From Anaerolineae bacterium (GTDB lineage: Bacteria; Chloroflexota; Anaerolineae; Caldilineales; Caldilineaceae): a stretch of DNA of 48,681 nt. The stretch spans positions 1 to 48,681 of the forward strand of contig JAUIHI010000044.1 in the NCBI GenBank assembly GCA_030432295.1. Reading direction: 5' to 3'. The notes below the pieces were generated by a model. That model was not told the origin of the DNA. It saw nothing but the letters and a program-made list of their open reading frames with translations, and did no database searches. Below, one piece after another: positions 7,666-47,685 of the stretch (position 1 is its first letter; each line of letters begins with the position of its first letter). Made by a program: the position numbers and the translations under genes.

Positions 7666-7698
7666 AGACCTGCCAGGTTTTGAAAACCTGGCAGGTCT
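7666..7698. repeat. Perfect intergenic palindrome, ACCTGCCAGG family
   Basis: 16-bp perfect arms (AGACCTGCCAGGTTTT and its complement) around a single base. A related hairpin lies inside the GH95 gene at 13866-13900. Confidence 0.9.
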
Positions 7699-13336: not shown

Positions 13337-15781
13337 ATGACAATCACCTCCCCCCTCACCCTATGCTACACAACCCCGGCGACCGCCTGGGAAGAAGCCC
13401 TGCCGATTGGCAATGGACGGATGGGCGCGATGATTTTTGGCGGTGTGGAGGAGGAGCGCATTGGGTTGAACGAGGATACGCTCTGGTCGGGCGGGCCGAA
13501 GGATACGACGAATCCCGGCGCGAAGGATGTACTGCCGGAGGTGCGCCGGTTGCTCTTTGCCGGGGAGTACGCGGCGGCGAATGATCTGTGTAAACAGATG
13601 CAGGGGCCGTATAGTCAGGCGTATCTGCCATTGGGGGATCTGCGGCTGCGCTTTGACCCGACGGCGGACGGCGGACCGCAGACGGCGTATCGACGGGCGC
13701 TGGATTTGGACATGGCGCTGGCGACCGTTGACTACGCACAAAATGGCGTGGCGTTTCGGCGGGAGGCGTTTGTGAGTTTCCCGGATCAGGTGCTGGTGGT
13801 GCGGCTGATGGCGGATCGGCCCGGCGCGCTCAATTTTGTGGTGGGGTTGGATAGTCTGTTGCGACACACCTGTCAGGTTTTGGAAAAGCTGACAGGTGTT
13901 ATACCCCACCCTGACCCTCCCCATTCTGGGGAGGGGACTGGATCGGCTCCTCCCCCAGAGTGGGGGAGGTCGGGAGGGGGTGAAGGGCTGGCAGGTGTTG
14001 TGATGCGCTGCGATGTGCCTGTGAATGTGGACCCGCCCTATCAAAGCGGCGACGATCCGATCCGCTACGGCGAGGGGATGCGGGCCGAGGCACATTTGCG
14101 CGTCGTTGCGCTGGGTGGCCGCGTGGAGCCAACGCCAGACGGGGAGATCGCAGTCAGCGGCGCGGACAGCGTCACCCTTTTTCTGGCCGCGGCCACCAGC
14201 TTCAACGGCTTCGACAAGCATCCGAGGCACGAGGGCGTTGACCCAGCCAGCCGGATTTTGCCGGTGCTGGAAGCGGCCCTAGCTCGCCCGTATGAAGAAC
14301 TGCGCGCCCGCCACATCGCCGATCACAAGACCCTCTTTCGTCGCGTGACGTTAGATTTGGGTGTTACGGACGCAATCAACCAATCAACCAGTGAACGAAT
14401 CGTCCGCTTTTCTTCCCAAAACGATCCCCAACTGATCGAACTCCTTTTCCAATACGGGCGCTATCTGCTCATCGCCAGCTCGAGGCCGGGCACGCAACCA
14501 GCCAACTTGCAGGGCATCTGGAATCCCCACATGCGGCCGCCGTGGAGCAGCAATTACACGCTGAATATCAATCTGGAGATGAACTATTGGCCGGCGGAGG
14601 TGACGAATCTGGCCGAATGCCACGGGCCGCTGCTGGCGTATGTGGCCGAGAGTGCGGTGACGGGCGCGGCGATTGCGACGGCGAACTACGGCTGCCGGGG
14701 CTGGACGACCCATCACAACGGGGACCTGTGGCGGCACGCCGCGCCGGTGGGCAACTACGGCGGGGGCAATCCCCAGTGGGCGATGTGGCCGTTGGGCGGG
14801 GCGTGGCTGAGCCAGCATCTGTGGGAATATTTCGCTTTTGGCGGGGATGTGGCGTACTTACGGGAGACGGCTTTCCCAGTGATGCGGGAGGCGGCGCGTT
14901 TCTGTCTGGACTGGCTGGTGGAGGGGCCGGATGGGTTTCTAGTCACCGCGCCAGGCACGTCGCCGGAGAATACGTTTACGACGGCGGACGGGCAGACCGC
15001 GGCGGTGAGCATCGGCCCCACCGGGGATATGGCGATGATCCGGGATTTGTTCGAGAACTGTCTGGAGGCCGGGGAAGTGCTGGGGGTGACGGATGCTTTG
15101 CAGGCAGAGATTGCCGACGCGCAGTCCCGGCTGCTGCCCTATCGCATCGGGCGCCTGGGCCAGTTGCAGGAATGGAGCGAGGATTGGGACGACCCGGAGG
15201 ATCATCACCGCCACGTCTCCCATCTGTTCGGACTGCATCCGGGGCGGCAGATTTCGCGGCGAGGGACGCCGGAACTGTGGGCTGCGGCTATGCGCTCGTT
15301 GGAACTGCGGGGCGACGAGGCAACCGGCTGGTCGATTGGCTGGAAGACGCTCTTCTGGGCGCGCTTTGAGGACGGGGATCACGCGTTGCAGATGATCCGG
15401 CTGCTTCTGCGTCCCGTCGCTCCGGGGGCACAGATGAGCGCGACGGGCGGCGGGGTCTATCCGAATCTCTTCGACGCGCATCCGCCCTTTCAGATCGACG
15501 GCAATTTCGGCGTGACAGCGGGGATTGCCGAGATGCTCCTGCAAAGCCAGAATGGGGAGTTGCATCTGCTCCCTGCACTGCCTGCGGCCTGGCCGAATGG
15601 ATCGGTGACGGGTCTGCGGGCGCGGGGTGGGTATACGGTGGATATCGCGTGGCGGGACGGGATACTACACGAAGCGGTCATACGGGCCGATCGGAGTGGG
15701 GTTTTCCCAGTGCGAATTGGAAAAAATCGGGTCGTTCATTTGGAATGCGAAGCTGGCGGCATCTATACACTACCCGGCTGA
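13337..15781 (+). CDS. Alpha-L-fucosidase, glycoside hydrolase family 95
   Basis: An 814-residue GH95 enzyme, an inverting exo-fucosidase acting mainly on alpha-1,2-linked fucose. The N-terminal beta domain begins with WEEALPIGNGRMGAMIFGG and contains ERIGLNEDTLWSGGP. The (alpha/alpha)6 barrel carries Asn410 and Asn412 (LNINLEMNYWPAE), the acid Glu544 (TSPENTF) and Asp721 (QIDGNFG), all catalytic positions of the family. The start at 13337 follows GGAG; the longer open frame from 13016 would run through the upstream aminotransferase and the repeat. No signal peptide. Residues about 177-221 are a foreign, Pro/Gly-rich insertion made of intergenic repeat DNA, and residues 347-354 hold another repeat fragment, both in frame. 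The gene ends with a 19-bp overlap with the minus-strand small gene. Confidence 0.93.
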   Translation: MTITSPLTLCYTTPATAWEEALPIGNGRMGAMIFGGVEEERIGLNEDTLWSGGPKDTTNPGAKDVLPEVRRLLFAGEYAAANDLCKQMQGPYSQAYLPLGDLRLRFDPTADGGPQTAYRRALDLDMALATVDYAQNGVAFRREAFVSFPDQVLVVRLMADRPGALNFVVGLDSLLRHTCQVLEKLTGVIPHPDPPHSGEGTGSAPPPEWGRSGGGEGLAGVVMRCDVPVNVDPPYQSGDDPIRYGEGMRAEAHLRVVALGGRVEPTPDGEIAVSGADSVTLFLAAATSFNGFDKHPRHEGVDPASRILPVLEAALARPYEELRARHIADHKTLFRRVTLDLGVTDAINQSTSERIVRFSSQNDPQLIELLFQYGRYLLIASSRPGTQPANLQGIWNPHMRPPWSSNYTLNINLEMNYWPAEVTNLAECHGPLLAYVAESAVTGAAIATANYGCRGWTTHHNGDLWRHAAPVGNYGGGNPQWAMWPLGGAWLSQHLWEYFAFGGDVAYLRETAFPVMREAARFCLDWLVEGPDGFLVTAPGTSPENTFTTADGQTAAVSIGPTGDMAMIRDLFENCLEAGEVLGVTDALQAEIADAQSRLLPYRIGRLGQLQEWSEDWDDPEDHHRHVSHLFGLHPGRQISRRGTPELWAAAMRSLELRGDEATGWSIGWKTLFWARFEDGDHALQMIRLLLRPVAPGAQMSATGGGVYPNLFDAHPPFQIDGNFGVTAGIAEMLLQSQNGELHLLPALPAAWPNGSVTGLRARGGYTVDIAWRDGILHEAVIRADRSGVFPVRIGKNRVVHLECEAGGIYTLPG
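13866..14003. repeat. Composite palindromic repeat inserted in frame in the GH95 gene
   Basis: A hairpin of the CCTGTCAG family (13869-13899) is followed by a C-rich/G-rich palindrome (about 13903-13982, CCCTCCCCATTCTGGGGAGG and CCCCCAGAGTGGGGGAGG words) and then a second GGCAGGTGTTGTG. The whole segment is free of stops in the gene frame. Confidence 0.8.
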
Positions 15782-16189: not shown

Positions 16190-17119
16190 ATGTTGCGCAA
16201 ACAATTCGGCAAACTGGGCTGGCCCGTTTCGGTCGTCGGCCTGGGCACGTGGAATATCGGCAACCAGTGGGGCGAGATCGACGATACCACCGCCTGGGCC
16301 ACCATCCGCGCCGCCTACGAAGCGGGAATGACCCTCTTCGACACAGCGGAGTCCTACGGCATCCCCAACGGGCTGTCGGAGTTTCGCCTGGGCCGAGCGT
16401 TGGCGGGTATCCGCCACAACGTCGTTGTCGTCAGCAAAATCGGCAACTGGGGCAAACGCACAGGCGGCGAAGTGCCCAAGACCGGCGTGGATTCCATCCG
16501 GGTCAGCGGCCACGCCATTCTGGGCCGTCTGCGCACGGACTGGGTGGATGTGATCCTCTGCCACGAGGGGGATGTGCAGGACCCGACGGTCTATCTGGAA
16601 GGCTTCGAGGCACTAAAAGCCGAAGGAAGTCTGCGTGCCTATGGCATCTCCACCAACAGTCTGGACGTGCTGAAGAAGTTCAATGTCAACGGCACGTGCA
16701 GTGTGGTGCAGGTGGACTACTCCCTGCTCAACCGCGCGCCAGAAGCCGCCTTCCTGCCATACTGCCAGGAGCACGGCATTGGGGTTATGGTGCGGGGGCC
16801 GTTGGCGAAGGGCGTGCTTTCCGGGCGCTATAACGGCGAATCCACCTTCACCGATACGGTGCGGGCAGGCTGGAACGATGACGGTGCGGCCCGGTCGAAG
16901 TTCCTGGAGCAGGTAGGACAGGTGGAGAAGCTGGCGGAGATCGTGCCCCCCGGCCCGGAGATGGTAGCCGCGGCCATTCGCTACACGGCCAGCCATCCTG
17001 CGGTTTCGGTGACGATTCCCGGCGCCAAGTCCGCGGCACAGGCTGCCACCAACGCGGCCGCGGGCGAGCGTCTCTACACCGACGCCGAAATGCGCAAGCT
17101 GGCCGCAGTAGTCAGTTGA
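16190..17119 (+). CDS. Aldo/keto reductase, possible L-fucose dehydrogenase
   Basis: A 309-residue AKR with the full catalytic tetrad Asp51, Tyr56 (LFDTAESYG), Lys83 (VVVSKIGNWG) and His125 (VILCHEGD). AAAGGAG precedes the ATG. In Xanthomonas the first step of non-phosphorylated fucose oxidation is performed by an AKR. Here the gene lies between a fucosidase and two sugar-acid dehydratases, so oxidation of L-fucose (or a related sugar) to a lactone is a reasonable inference. A general aldehyde reductase cannot be excluded. Confidence 0.8.
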   Translation: MLRKQFGKLGWPVSVVGLGTWNIGNQWGEIDDTTAWATIRAAYEAGMTLFDTAESYGIPNGLSEFRLGRALAGIRHNVVVVSKIGNWGKRTGGEVPKTGVDSIRVSGHAILGRLRTDWVDVILCHEGDVQDPTVYLEGFEALKAEGSLRAYGISTNSLDVLKKFNVNGTCSVVQVDYSLLNRAPEAAFLPYCQEHGIGVMVRGPLAKGVLSGRYNGESTFTDTVRAGWNDDGAARSKFLEQVGQVEKLAEIVPPGPEMVAAAIRYTASHPAVSVTIPGAKSAAQAATNAAAGERLYTDAEMRKLAAVVS

Positions 17120-17123
17120 ATTC

Positions 17124-17195
17124 TGACGGCGGACGATGGACGGAAGACGAACGATTGTGGAATTCGTTCGTCTTTCGTCCACCGTCCCTCGTCCC
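17124..17195. repeat. Intergenic palindrome, GGACG...CGTCC family, copy 1
   Basis: The left arm contains GACGGCGGACGATGGACGG and the right arm CGTCTTTCGTCCACCGTCC. The same element recurs at 18401-18471 and 19665-19738, that is after each of three consecutive genes. Confidence 0.9.
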
Positions 17196-17234
17196 CAATC
17201 AATTTATCTTCATTTCACGGAGAATCTTCCCCCA

Positions 17235-18400: not shown

Positions 18401-18471
18401 CGACCGCGGACGATAGACGAAAGACGAACCAATTCCACAATCGTTCGTCTTTCGTCCACCGTCCGTCGTCA
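18401..18471. repeat. Intergenic palindrome, GGACG...CGTCC family, copy 2
   Basis: GACGAAAGACGAACCAATT on the left pairs with the TCGTTCGTCTTTCGTCCACC right arm. It separates the two tandem dehydratase paralogues. Confidence 0.9.
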
Positions 18472-19664: not shown

Positions 19665-19738
19665 CGACGACGGCGGACGGCAGACGGCAGACGAACGGAT
19701 TCGCAATCGTTTGTCTTTCGTCCATCGTCTGCCGTCAA
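19665..19738. repeat. Intergenic palindrome, GGACG...CGTCC family, copy 3
   Basis: GACGGCGGACGGCAGACGG on the left and TCGTCCATCGTCTGCCGTC type words on the right. It lies between paralogue 2 and the GH29 gene. Confidence 0.9.
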
Positions 19739-31465: not shown

Positions 31466-32071
31466 ATGGGGAAGGTTGGGACGCAGATGAACGCTGATTT
31501 GAAGAACGATCCCCAGGCGTGGAGAACCAGCGCCACCCGCTCGGCCTTTCGCAACCGCTGGCTGGGGGTGGAGATCGACGAAGTAGAGTTACCCACCGGC
31601 GCGGTCTACGAGTACACCCGTCTGCTGCCCGCGGGTGTGGGCGTGGCGGTCATCGGCTTCAATGCCGCGGGCCAAGTGCTGCTGGAACGGGAGTACCGCC
31701 ACGGGGTGGGTGAGGTCGTCTGGCAGCTTCCCGGTGGGCTGGCTGACAGCGGCGAAGAACTGCGCGACGCCGGGCTGCGGGAACTGTGGGAGGAGACCGG
31801 CCACGCGCCATCCGAAGTGAACGACGAAACGGTGCGCTACTTGGGCAGCATCTGGGACAACCCCGGCTTCGGTACAGCCATCAGCCACGTCTACGCGGCC
31901 TGGGGACTGGAAGAGGTCAGCGCCGCCCGCCGGGACACCGCCGAATTTGTCACCCTCCATTGGGTGTCGCCGGGCTGGCTGAAAGAGGCCGTGCGCGACG
32001 GCACAATCCGCGACCGGGTGGTTGTGGCCGCGGTGGGGTGGCTGATTTTGAACAATTGGTTGATTGGTTGA
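31466..32071 (+). CDS. Nudix hydrolase (ADP-ribose pyrophosphatase-like)
   Basis: A 201-residue Nudix enzyme with a complete box at residues about 90-112 (G-x5-E-x7-REL-x-EETG). VYEYTRLLPAGVGVAVIGF and LEREYRHGVGEVVWQLPGG are typical of ADP-sugar pyrophosphatases. Both gene ends are made of intergenic repeat DNA. Codons 5-11 (GTQMNAD) come from the GGGACGCAGATGAACGCTGAT repeat, and the final codons (LNNWLIG) from the TTGGTTGATTGG palindrome. The true start may therefore be the internal ATG at 31487. Its role inside a lysine operon is unclear. Confidence 0.85.
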   Translation: MGKVGTQMNADLKNDPQAWRTSATRSAFRNRWLGVEIDEVELPTGAVYEYTRLLPAGVGVAVIGFNAAGQVLLEREYRHGVGEVVWQLPGGLADSGEELRDAGLRELWEETGHAPSEVNDETVRYLGSIWDNPGFGTAISHVYAAWGLEEVSAARRDTAEFVTLHWVSPGWLKEAVRDGTIRDRVVVAAVGWLILNNWLIG

Positions 32072-32129
32072 GTAGTTGATTGGTTACCTGATTCGGCAAT
32101 TCTAACCAATCAACCAGTCAACCAATCAA
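32060..32129. repeat. Intergenic palindrome, TTGATTGGTT family
   Basis: 27-nt arms (32060-32086 and 32103-32129) with two mismatches. The left arm supplies the stop codon of the Nudix gene. A fragment of the same word series lies in the GH95 gene at 14374-14395. Confidence 0.9.
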
Positions 32130-32153
32130 CTTTGGGAAACTGGAACAACGACA

Positions 32154-35913: not shown

Positions 35914-36000
35914 GATATTGGGTATTGGATATTTCGTCGGGCTGTTGACGGCATCGCATAGTCCCGTTTCGTGACTGCCAAATATCCAATACCCAATATC
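35914..36000. repeat. Intergenic palindrome, ATATTGGGTATTGG family, copy 1
   Basis: Perfect 21-bp arms (35914-35934 and 35980-36000) around a 45-bp centre. Copy 2 lies at 47618-47685, more than 11 kb away. Confidence 0.95.
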
Positions 36001-47617: not shown

Positions 47618-47685
47618 ATATTGGGTATTGGGTATTTGGTAGTGACAATCCGTGTCATCACTACCAAATATCCAATACCCAATAT
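47618..47685. repeat. Intergenic palindrome, ATATTGGGTATTGG family, copy 2
   Basis: 28-nt arms (47618-47645 and 47658-47685) with one mismatch and a 12-nt loop. Outer arms match copy 1 at 35914-36000, but the centre differs. Confidence 0.95.

Follow-up and report, generated by a model that had tools for sequence, protein, structure and literature searches.

Rickettsia palindromic elements (RPEs; Ogata, 2000, 2002), reviewed in PMC2229807 and PMC10969869, are palindromes of ~100-150 nt that occur both between genes and in frame within conserved genes, where they are read as peptide (PMC2229807, PMC10969869). They are compatible with a working protein, as tested for gmk, and their target duplication is entered as "?" in one of the reviews (PMC2229807). 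Intragenic REPs have been reported in Opitutus terrae, R. conorii, and others (PMC3733652), and residues have also been added to ORFs by in-frame fusions of ERIC and YPAL (PMC2229807) and by QMITE1 of Coxiella (PMC5896051). The triplex motifs (TM) of E. coli are always intergenic, with no link to mobile elements (PMC4666352). Among insertion sequences, ISDge4 (IS66 family, ISBst12 group) has ends GTGACTACTCAGCA/GTAACTGCTCAGCA and makes an 8-nt duplication on transposition (PMC12898284).

Here we analyzed a 48,681-nt stretch of DNA (the window) from a member of the Caldilineaceae, in which two palindromes lie in frame in a GH95 alpha-L-fucosidase gene. As the original prediction had proposed, the locus resembles RPEs, since a palindrome is found in frame in conserved genes and is missing from their orthologues (empty sites for GH95, NFACT, and TilS). 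The host, however, belongs to the Chloroflexota and not to Rickettsia, and we therefore regard the element as RPE-like in its behavior without counting it among the RPEs. Other differences are its C/G-rich sequence, which looks unrelated by inspection, its 8-bp duplications of the target, and the presence of a possible IS66 partner. Moreover, a single codon site here holds two unrelated elements, one inside the other, and sister species still show both of the intermediate states. With the REP, ERIC, YPAL, and QMITE1 cases it shares a short palindromic or MITE sequence that adds residues within ORFs, but it has no GTAG/CGTC tag, and its canonical insertion adds exactly 111 nt and has a single open frame. 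Its alternating C-rich and G-rich mirror-symmetric tracts (GGGGGAGG...GGAGGGGG) recall TM motifs, although here the tracts form the core of a MITE; the TM-ECO consensus CCCTCNCCCN3-6GGGNGAGGGN3GGGNGAGGG had 0 matches in the window. ISDge4 is similar in its ends (GTRACTRYTCAG), its 8-bp duplication, and the single-ORF transposase also present in an element of a sister genome, whereas in the MITE such ends enclose no gene but a C/G palindrome of 103 bp. No description of this element was found in the literature that we searched.

Two Insertions at One Codon Site

The features of the locus are collected in Table 1. The hairpin and the C/G-rich palindrome originally predicted within the GH95 gene are both real: the hairpin arms ACACCTGTCAGGTTTT/AAAAGCTGACAGGTGT are 94% complementary, and the 160-nt stretch that comprises both palindromes has a folding energy of -95.1 kcal/mol, vs. 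-64.5 +/- 4.6 kcal/mol for shuffled sequences (z -6.7, 0/200). The frame is also as predicted. With the true start of the gene at 13337, the reading frame is open throughout, and the insert, in frame and stop-free, corresponds to residues 177-222.

Table 1. Positions in the window of the host gene, the hairpins, and the parts of the later insertion.
Feature	Position	Strand	Details
GH95 alpha-L-fucosidase gene, host of insertions	13337..15781	+	814 aa; Pfam PF14498, PF22124, PF21307; six same-genus orthologues
Hairpin, first insertion, common to G005 and G006	13866..13899		34 nt; dispersed family, consensus AGACCTGCCAGGTTTCGGAAAACCTGGCAGGTCT
Intergenic member of same hairpin family	7666..7698		Perfect 16-nt arms
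99-nt in-frame insertion, window genome only	13888..13986	+	From alignment with G005/G006; 33 codons, ~residues 184-217
Degraded copy of 103-bp MITE	13901..13986	+	GTAACT/AGTTAC ends lost; 13903-13983 match consensus positions 15-95, 88%
Left direct repeat GCTGACAGGTGTT	13888..13900	+	Right arm of hairpin, pairs with left arm
Right direct repeat GCTGGCAGGTGTT	13987..13999	+	Retains ancestral G seen in G006

Six genomes of the same Caldilineaceae genus (G001-G006) have a GH95 orthologue, and aligning these at the DNA level revealed three states at one codon site. Four genomes (G001, G002, G003, and G004) are empty, with 24 nt at the site (in G001, ACG GTG GCC GCG GAG GAT GGC GGG, read as TVAAEDGG). 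In G005 and G006 the 24 nt are replaced, in frame, by a 30-nt hairpin, which in G005 is exactly ACCTGCCAGGTTTCGGAAAACCTGGCAGGT and is read as TCQVSENLAG. Only in the window genome, known from one assembly of one strain, is the hairpin accompanied by an in-frame C/G-rich palindrome of 99 nt (33 codons). The alignment thus shows the first step to be a swap of 24 nt for 30 nt and no simple insertion. Since the hairpin is common to G005 and G006 while the C/G-rich part occurs only in the window genome, the hairpin is the older insertion and the C/G-rich element the younger. This confirms that the insert was built in two steps, and the single composite insertion originally envisaged has to be given up. 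We also considered that the composite had been copied as one unit; this was rejected, as no second copy of the whole 1-151 query exists in the genome.

Two Dispersed Families and a Candidate Transposase

The intergenic hairpin that had been assigned to the same family (Table 1) is indeed one member of a dispersed set. Searching with the pattern ACCTGNCAGGTTTTNNAAAACCTGNCAGGT (<=3 mismatches allowed, reversed pattern as control), we found 50 hairpin copies in the window's genome, 3-29 in genus-mates, and 0 with the reversed control. Stem positions are paired in 98% of cases across the 50 copies, and double changes occur at 8 of 13 pairs; these compensatory changes indicate that the structure is kept while the sequence drifts. 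Twelve of the 50 copies appear in frame within coding sequence, with Pfam-supported hosts that include a threonine/serine dehydratase-like PALP enzyme, a histidine kinase HATPase domain, UreF, an isochorismate-synthase-like enzyme, a NACHT-LRR protein, and a CHAT protein. No target duplication was detected beside hairpin copies at offsets 2-12. The window contains more intergenic inverted-repeat families (17116-17202, 18402-18470, 19676-19736, 32059-32130, 35914-36000, and 47618-47685; GACGGCGGACGATGGACG, GTTGATTGGTTGA, and ATTGGGTATTGGGTA types), which look like further dispersed palindromes.

The C/G-rich element has a 103-nt palindromic consensus, GTAACTACTCAGCCACCCCACCCTAACCCTCCCC...GGGGGAGGTTGGGAGGGGGTGAGCAGTTAC, with the ends GTAACT...AGTTAC, and copies are present in all seven genus genomes (7/7). 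We examined 101 copies, of which the 57 with both ends make up the canonical set; counts for the window's genome rest on searches and ~120 retrieved stretches. An 8-bp target duplication is perfect in 24/57 canonical copies and has at most one mismatch in 39/57, while among mismatched flank pairs used as a control the figures are 1/3192 and 5/3192, respectively. Flanks match at offset 8 only, with nothing at offsets 5-7 or 9-11, and a permutation test on a smaller set gave 0/10000. The element is 103 nt long in 49/57 canonical copies, and the net addition is 111 nt in 33/39 copies with a duplication. A canonical insertion of 103 bp with its 8-bp duplication therefore adds 111 nt, or exactly 37 codons. 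The C-rich/G-rich sequence was correctly recognized as a palindrome in the original prediction, but it is more than that: by its duplications and IS66-type ends, its family can be classed as a MITE.

Copies of this MITE family also occur outside the genus, elsewhere in the taxonomic family (15/46 genomes, 7/17 genera). In G001, a first look gave >500 C/G-rich candidates, vs. 20-80 in most genus-mates, which would fit a recent burst there, although that genome has no intact IS66 match. A similar C/G-rich core, ~77-79% identical and without GTAACT ends, is found on Azospirillum plasmids, and this sequence similarity suggests that the core predates the MITE or is more widely distributed. A second palindromic miniature element at G001:C18 2415-2508, with GTAACTACTCAGG ends, a perfect 8-bp duplication (CTCGATTC), and the core GGGTGCGACGCACTCGCC, probably represents another IS66-type MITE family. 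Rfam returned only microRNA models, far below gathering scores, which are chance matches to the C/G hairpin.

A candidate for the mobilizing enzyme comes from G005, where two copies (99.9% identical) of a 1549-bp element carry a single ORF for an IS66-family transposase of 486 aa (PF03050, NF033517). This element has GTGACTATTCAGGCTG at both ends and perfect 8-bp duplications (GAAAATAC and CAAATTGA), and G005 also contains a MITE whose ends are GTGACTATTCAGCC and whose duplication is GAATAGGG. The GTRACT... ends are thus common to the MITE and the IS66 element, as expected for a MITE of the IS66/ISBst12 group, and the target duplication of the MITE family has the length of that of its partner (8 bp). 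From these shared ends and duplications, mobilization in trans by an IS66-family (ISBst12-type) transposase would be the best reading. IS66 transposase matches were found in G005, G004, and G006 (a fragment) and none in the window's genome, where the source of transposase may be lost or unassembled.

Alternatively, both palindromes may be REP/BIME-type repeats moved by a RAYT (Y1/TnpA-REP) transposase. The 34-nt hairpin is REP-like in size and structure, Y1_Tnp has seven matches in the window's genome and is present in 6/7 genus genomes, and REPs are known within ORFs (PMC3733652). However, the hairpin consensus AGACCTGCC...GGCAGGTCT lacks the GTAG/CGTC tag of REPs, no hairpin arm lies within ~1.5 kb of any of 12 Y1_Tnp loci, and the 8-bp duplications and IS66-like ends of the C/G module fit a DDE transposase. 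The duplications already contradict a RAYT origin for the C/G module, and for the two palindromes together we regard it as improbable.

MITE Copies Within Genes and the Fate of the Host Enzyme

One of six reading combinations is stop-free in the canonical MITE variants that we translated. Coding-potential analysis of the flanks yielded 15 open copies for which the coding sequence to the left and to the right is on the same strand and in the same frame, all of them sense. Nearly all read ...PHPNPPQIGEGT...WGRLGGGE..., although a protein search supplied 11 of the 15 loci, which biases these toward that frame; the unbiased, DNA-derived part of the sample has four copies in frame and open vs. five on the same strand that are not open and may represent neighboring genes. 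The hosts of in-frame copies are NFACT_N, AMP-binding, GT4, TilS, GNAT, and PMT_2 genes. The MITE lies inside a domain in the NFACT/RqcH-like gene of the window's genome (contig C33) and in the AMP-ligase, and the GNAT gene carries a tandem pair. The TilS copy is in G004:C114; TilS is essential in many bacteria. Both the NFACT and the TilS sites are empty in genus-mates, and a search for an AMP-binding orthologue for the same comparison gave only paralogues of ~30-38% identity. At G002:C641:6393-6651, three tandem C/G-rich copies spaced by ~90 nt lie in one open frame of 655 aa.

The original suggestion that the enzyme may survive with a surface loop agrees with the models. An AlphaFold2 model of the window GH95 built on 49 sequences has a mean pLDDT of 91.6, and the predicted fold superposes on the solved structure 2rdy with Z 56.4 and an rmsd of 1.4 over 763 residues. 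Insert residues 190-215 have pLDDT <50 and lie between strands 176-182 and 218-226. The catalytic residues N410, N412, E612, and D721 are unchanged in 49/49 sequences of the GH95 alignment. Domains, predicted fold, and catalytic residues are all those of a GH95 enzyme. Pairwise dN/dS is 0.14-0.20 in comparisons with the window gene vs. 0.15-0.20 among the other orthologues, and selection is thus not relaxed. The predictions indicate an intact GH95 fold in which the insert would form a disordered Pro/Gly/Ser loop of the N-terminal beta domain, and they point to a working gene with such a loop, or else to a very recent insertion.

An alternative is that the gene is dying, with an insertion that inactivates the enzyme and is in frame only by chance. 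The insert is 33 codons long and one in six combinations is open, making chance open insertions possible, and the genome has a second GH95 gene (contig C13). Yet the 814 codons remain open, with intact catalytic residues, unraised dN/dS, and an intact predicted fold, and the same MITE is in frame in the NFACT and TilS genes. We therefore think it quite improbable that the gene is decaying.

Two additional observations concern orthologues of this gene. That of G006 has two extra in-frame insertions that the window gene lacks: its N-terminal domain carries NAETQRRGGAEETGEGYSSFPSLRAGTSPGRSASPEGSN and its catalytic domain DTRPGPRPSRPDRPAGGDVG... The G005 protein has HTCTEPVECD close to its C-terminus. 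Small repeats seem to accumulate at several places in the GH95 gene.

The Window Copy and Its Edges

The copy in the window has neither canonical termini nor a clean 8-bp duplication and is instead flanked by a 12/13-nt direct repeat, so that the mechanism has to be read from the family and not from this copy. The upstream repeat has an A that pairs with a T of the left hairpin arm, and the downstream repeat has the ancestral G. The repeats would be better explained by a single event, a C-to-T change followed by copying of the arm from the left arm, than by two independent matching changes. The length of the insertion (99 = 111 - 12) is consistent with trimming in whole codons.

These edges also bear on a rival origin, in which replication slippage or a template switch at a palindrome able to form a triplex or cruciform, and not transposition, produced the 99-nt segment. 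The direct repeat of the hairpin arm flanks both edges, the pairing A of the upstream arm looks as if copied from the left arm, and the mirror-symmetric C/G tracts resemble intrastrand triplex motifs that have been linked to instability (PMC4666352). Slippage does not, however, bring in a core 88% identical to a dispersed 103-bp element that has target duplications elsewhere, making it a very improbable source of the segment, although it may explain the lost ends and repaired arm of the window copy.

Comparison with more distant homologues, the check proposed with the original prediction, shows how unusual the loop is. Between alignment anchors the window protein has 49 residues vs. 11-16 in 47/48 homologues, and the 48th has 48 residues unrelated in sequence to the window insert; over a wider stretch, most of the 48 have 37 +/- 1 residues, the window protein 72, and G005 39. 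Homologues in which the segment recurs with conserved protein sequence were looked for, and the 33 C/G-rich codons occur in none, whether among the six same-genus orthologues or the 48 wider homologues. The expected absence from relatives thus holds for the C/G-rich part but not for the hairpin part, which G005 and G006 share. That the loop is an old GH95 subfamily feature lost by relatives, for which we found no supporting evidence, is refuted by the orthologue series, in which only two of six have even a 10-residue hairpin part, together with the wider homologues.

Proposed History and Implications

We favor, with a probability of roughly 0.8, a history in which two mobile palindromes arrived in succession at one tolerant beta-turn, the second being a MITE moved by an IS66-type transposase, and in which the protein tolerated both. 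As the orthologues show, a hairpin of the dispersed 30-34-nt family replaced the turn (24 -> 30 nt, in frame) in a common ancestor of the window genome and two sister species, and the MITE then entered the right arm of the hairpin in the window genome only. A canonical MITE (103 bp, GTRACT ends) would, together with its 8-bp duplication, have added 111 nt (37 codons), and a later loss of its termini would leave the net 99 nt in frame. Movement in trans by a single-ORF ISBst12-type IS66 DDE transposase would account for the common ends and the 8-bp duplications. The sole stop-free frame of the MITE reads ...PHPNPPQIGEGT...PPPIWGRLGGGE..., and selection would retain the genic insertions read in this way. 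The protein would survive because the insert is predicted to be a disordered Pro/Gly/Ser loop between two strands that leaves the fold and the catalytic residues intact.

It is conceivable, although we hold this only tentatively and think it unlikely, that the MITE is a frame-neutral coding element whose 111-nt length and single open frame are maintained as genic insertions survive, and which acts as an IS66-driven donor of loops. If true, an IS66-driven MITE would repeatedly give disordered Pro/Gly-rich linkers to proteins of this genus, and one such donated loop would sit within an element that had reached the same site earlier.

Rickettsia provides the best-known examples of protein-coding palindromes, and the system described here appears comparable in a free-living member of the Chloroflexota. 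What it adds is that, for palindromes of this kind, the target duplication is clear, at 8 bp, and an IS66-type transposase can be named as a candidate. The empty, hairpin, and hairpin-plus-MITE states form a natural series of one enzyme, with which one can directly test both what selfish DNA does to a protein and how such elements move.
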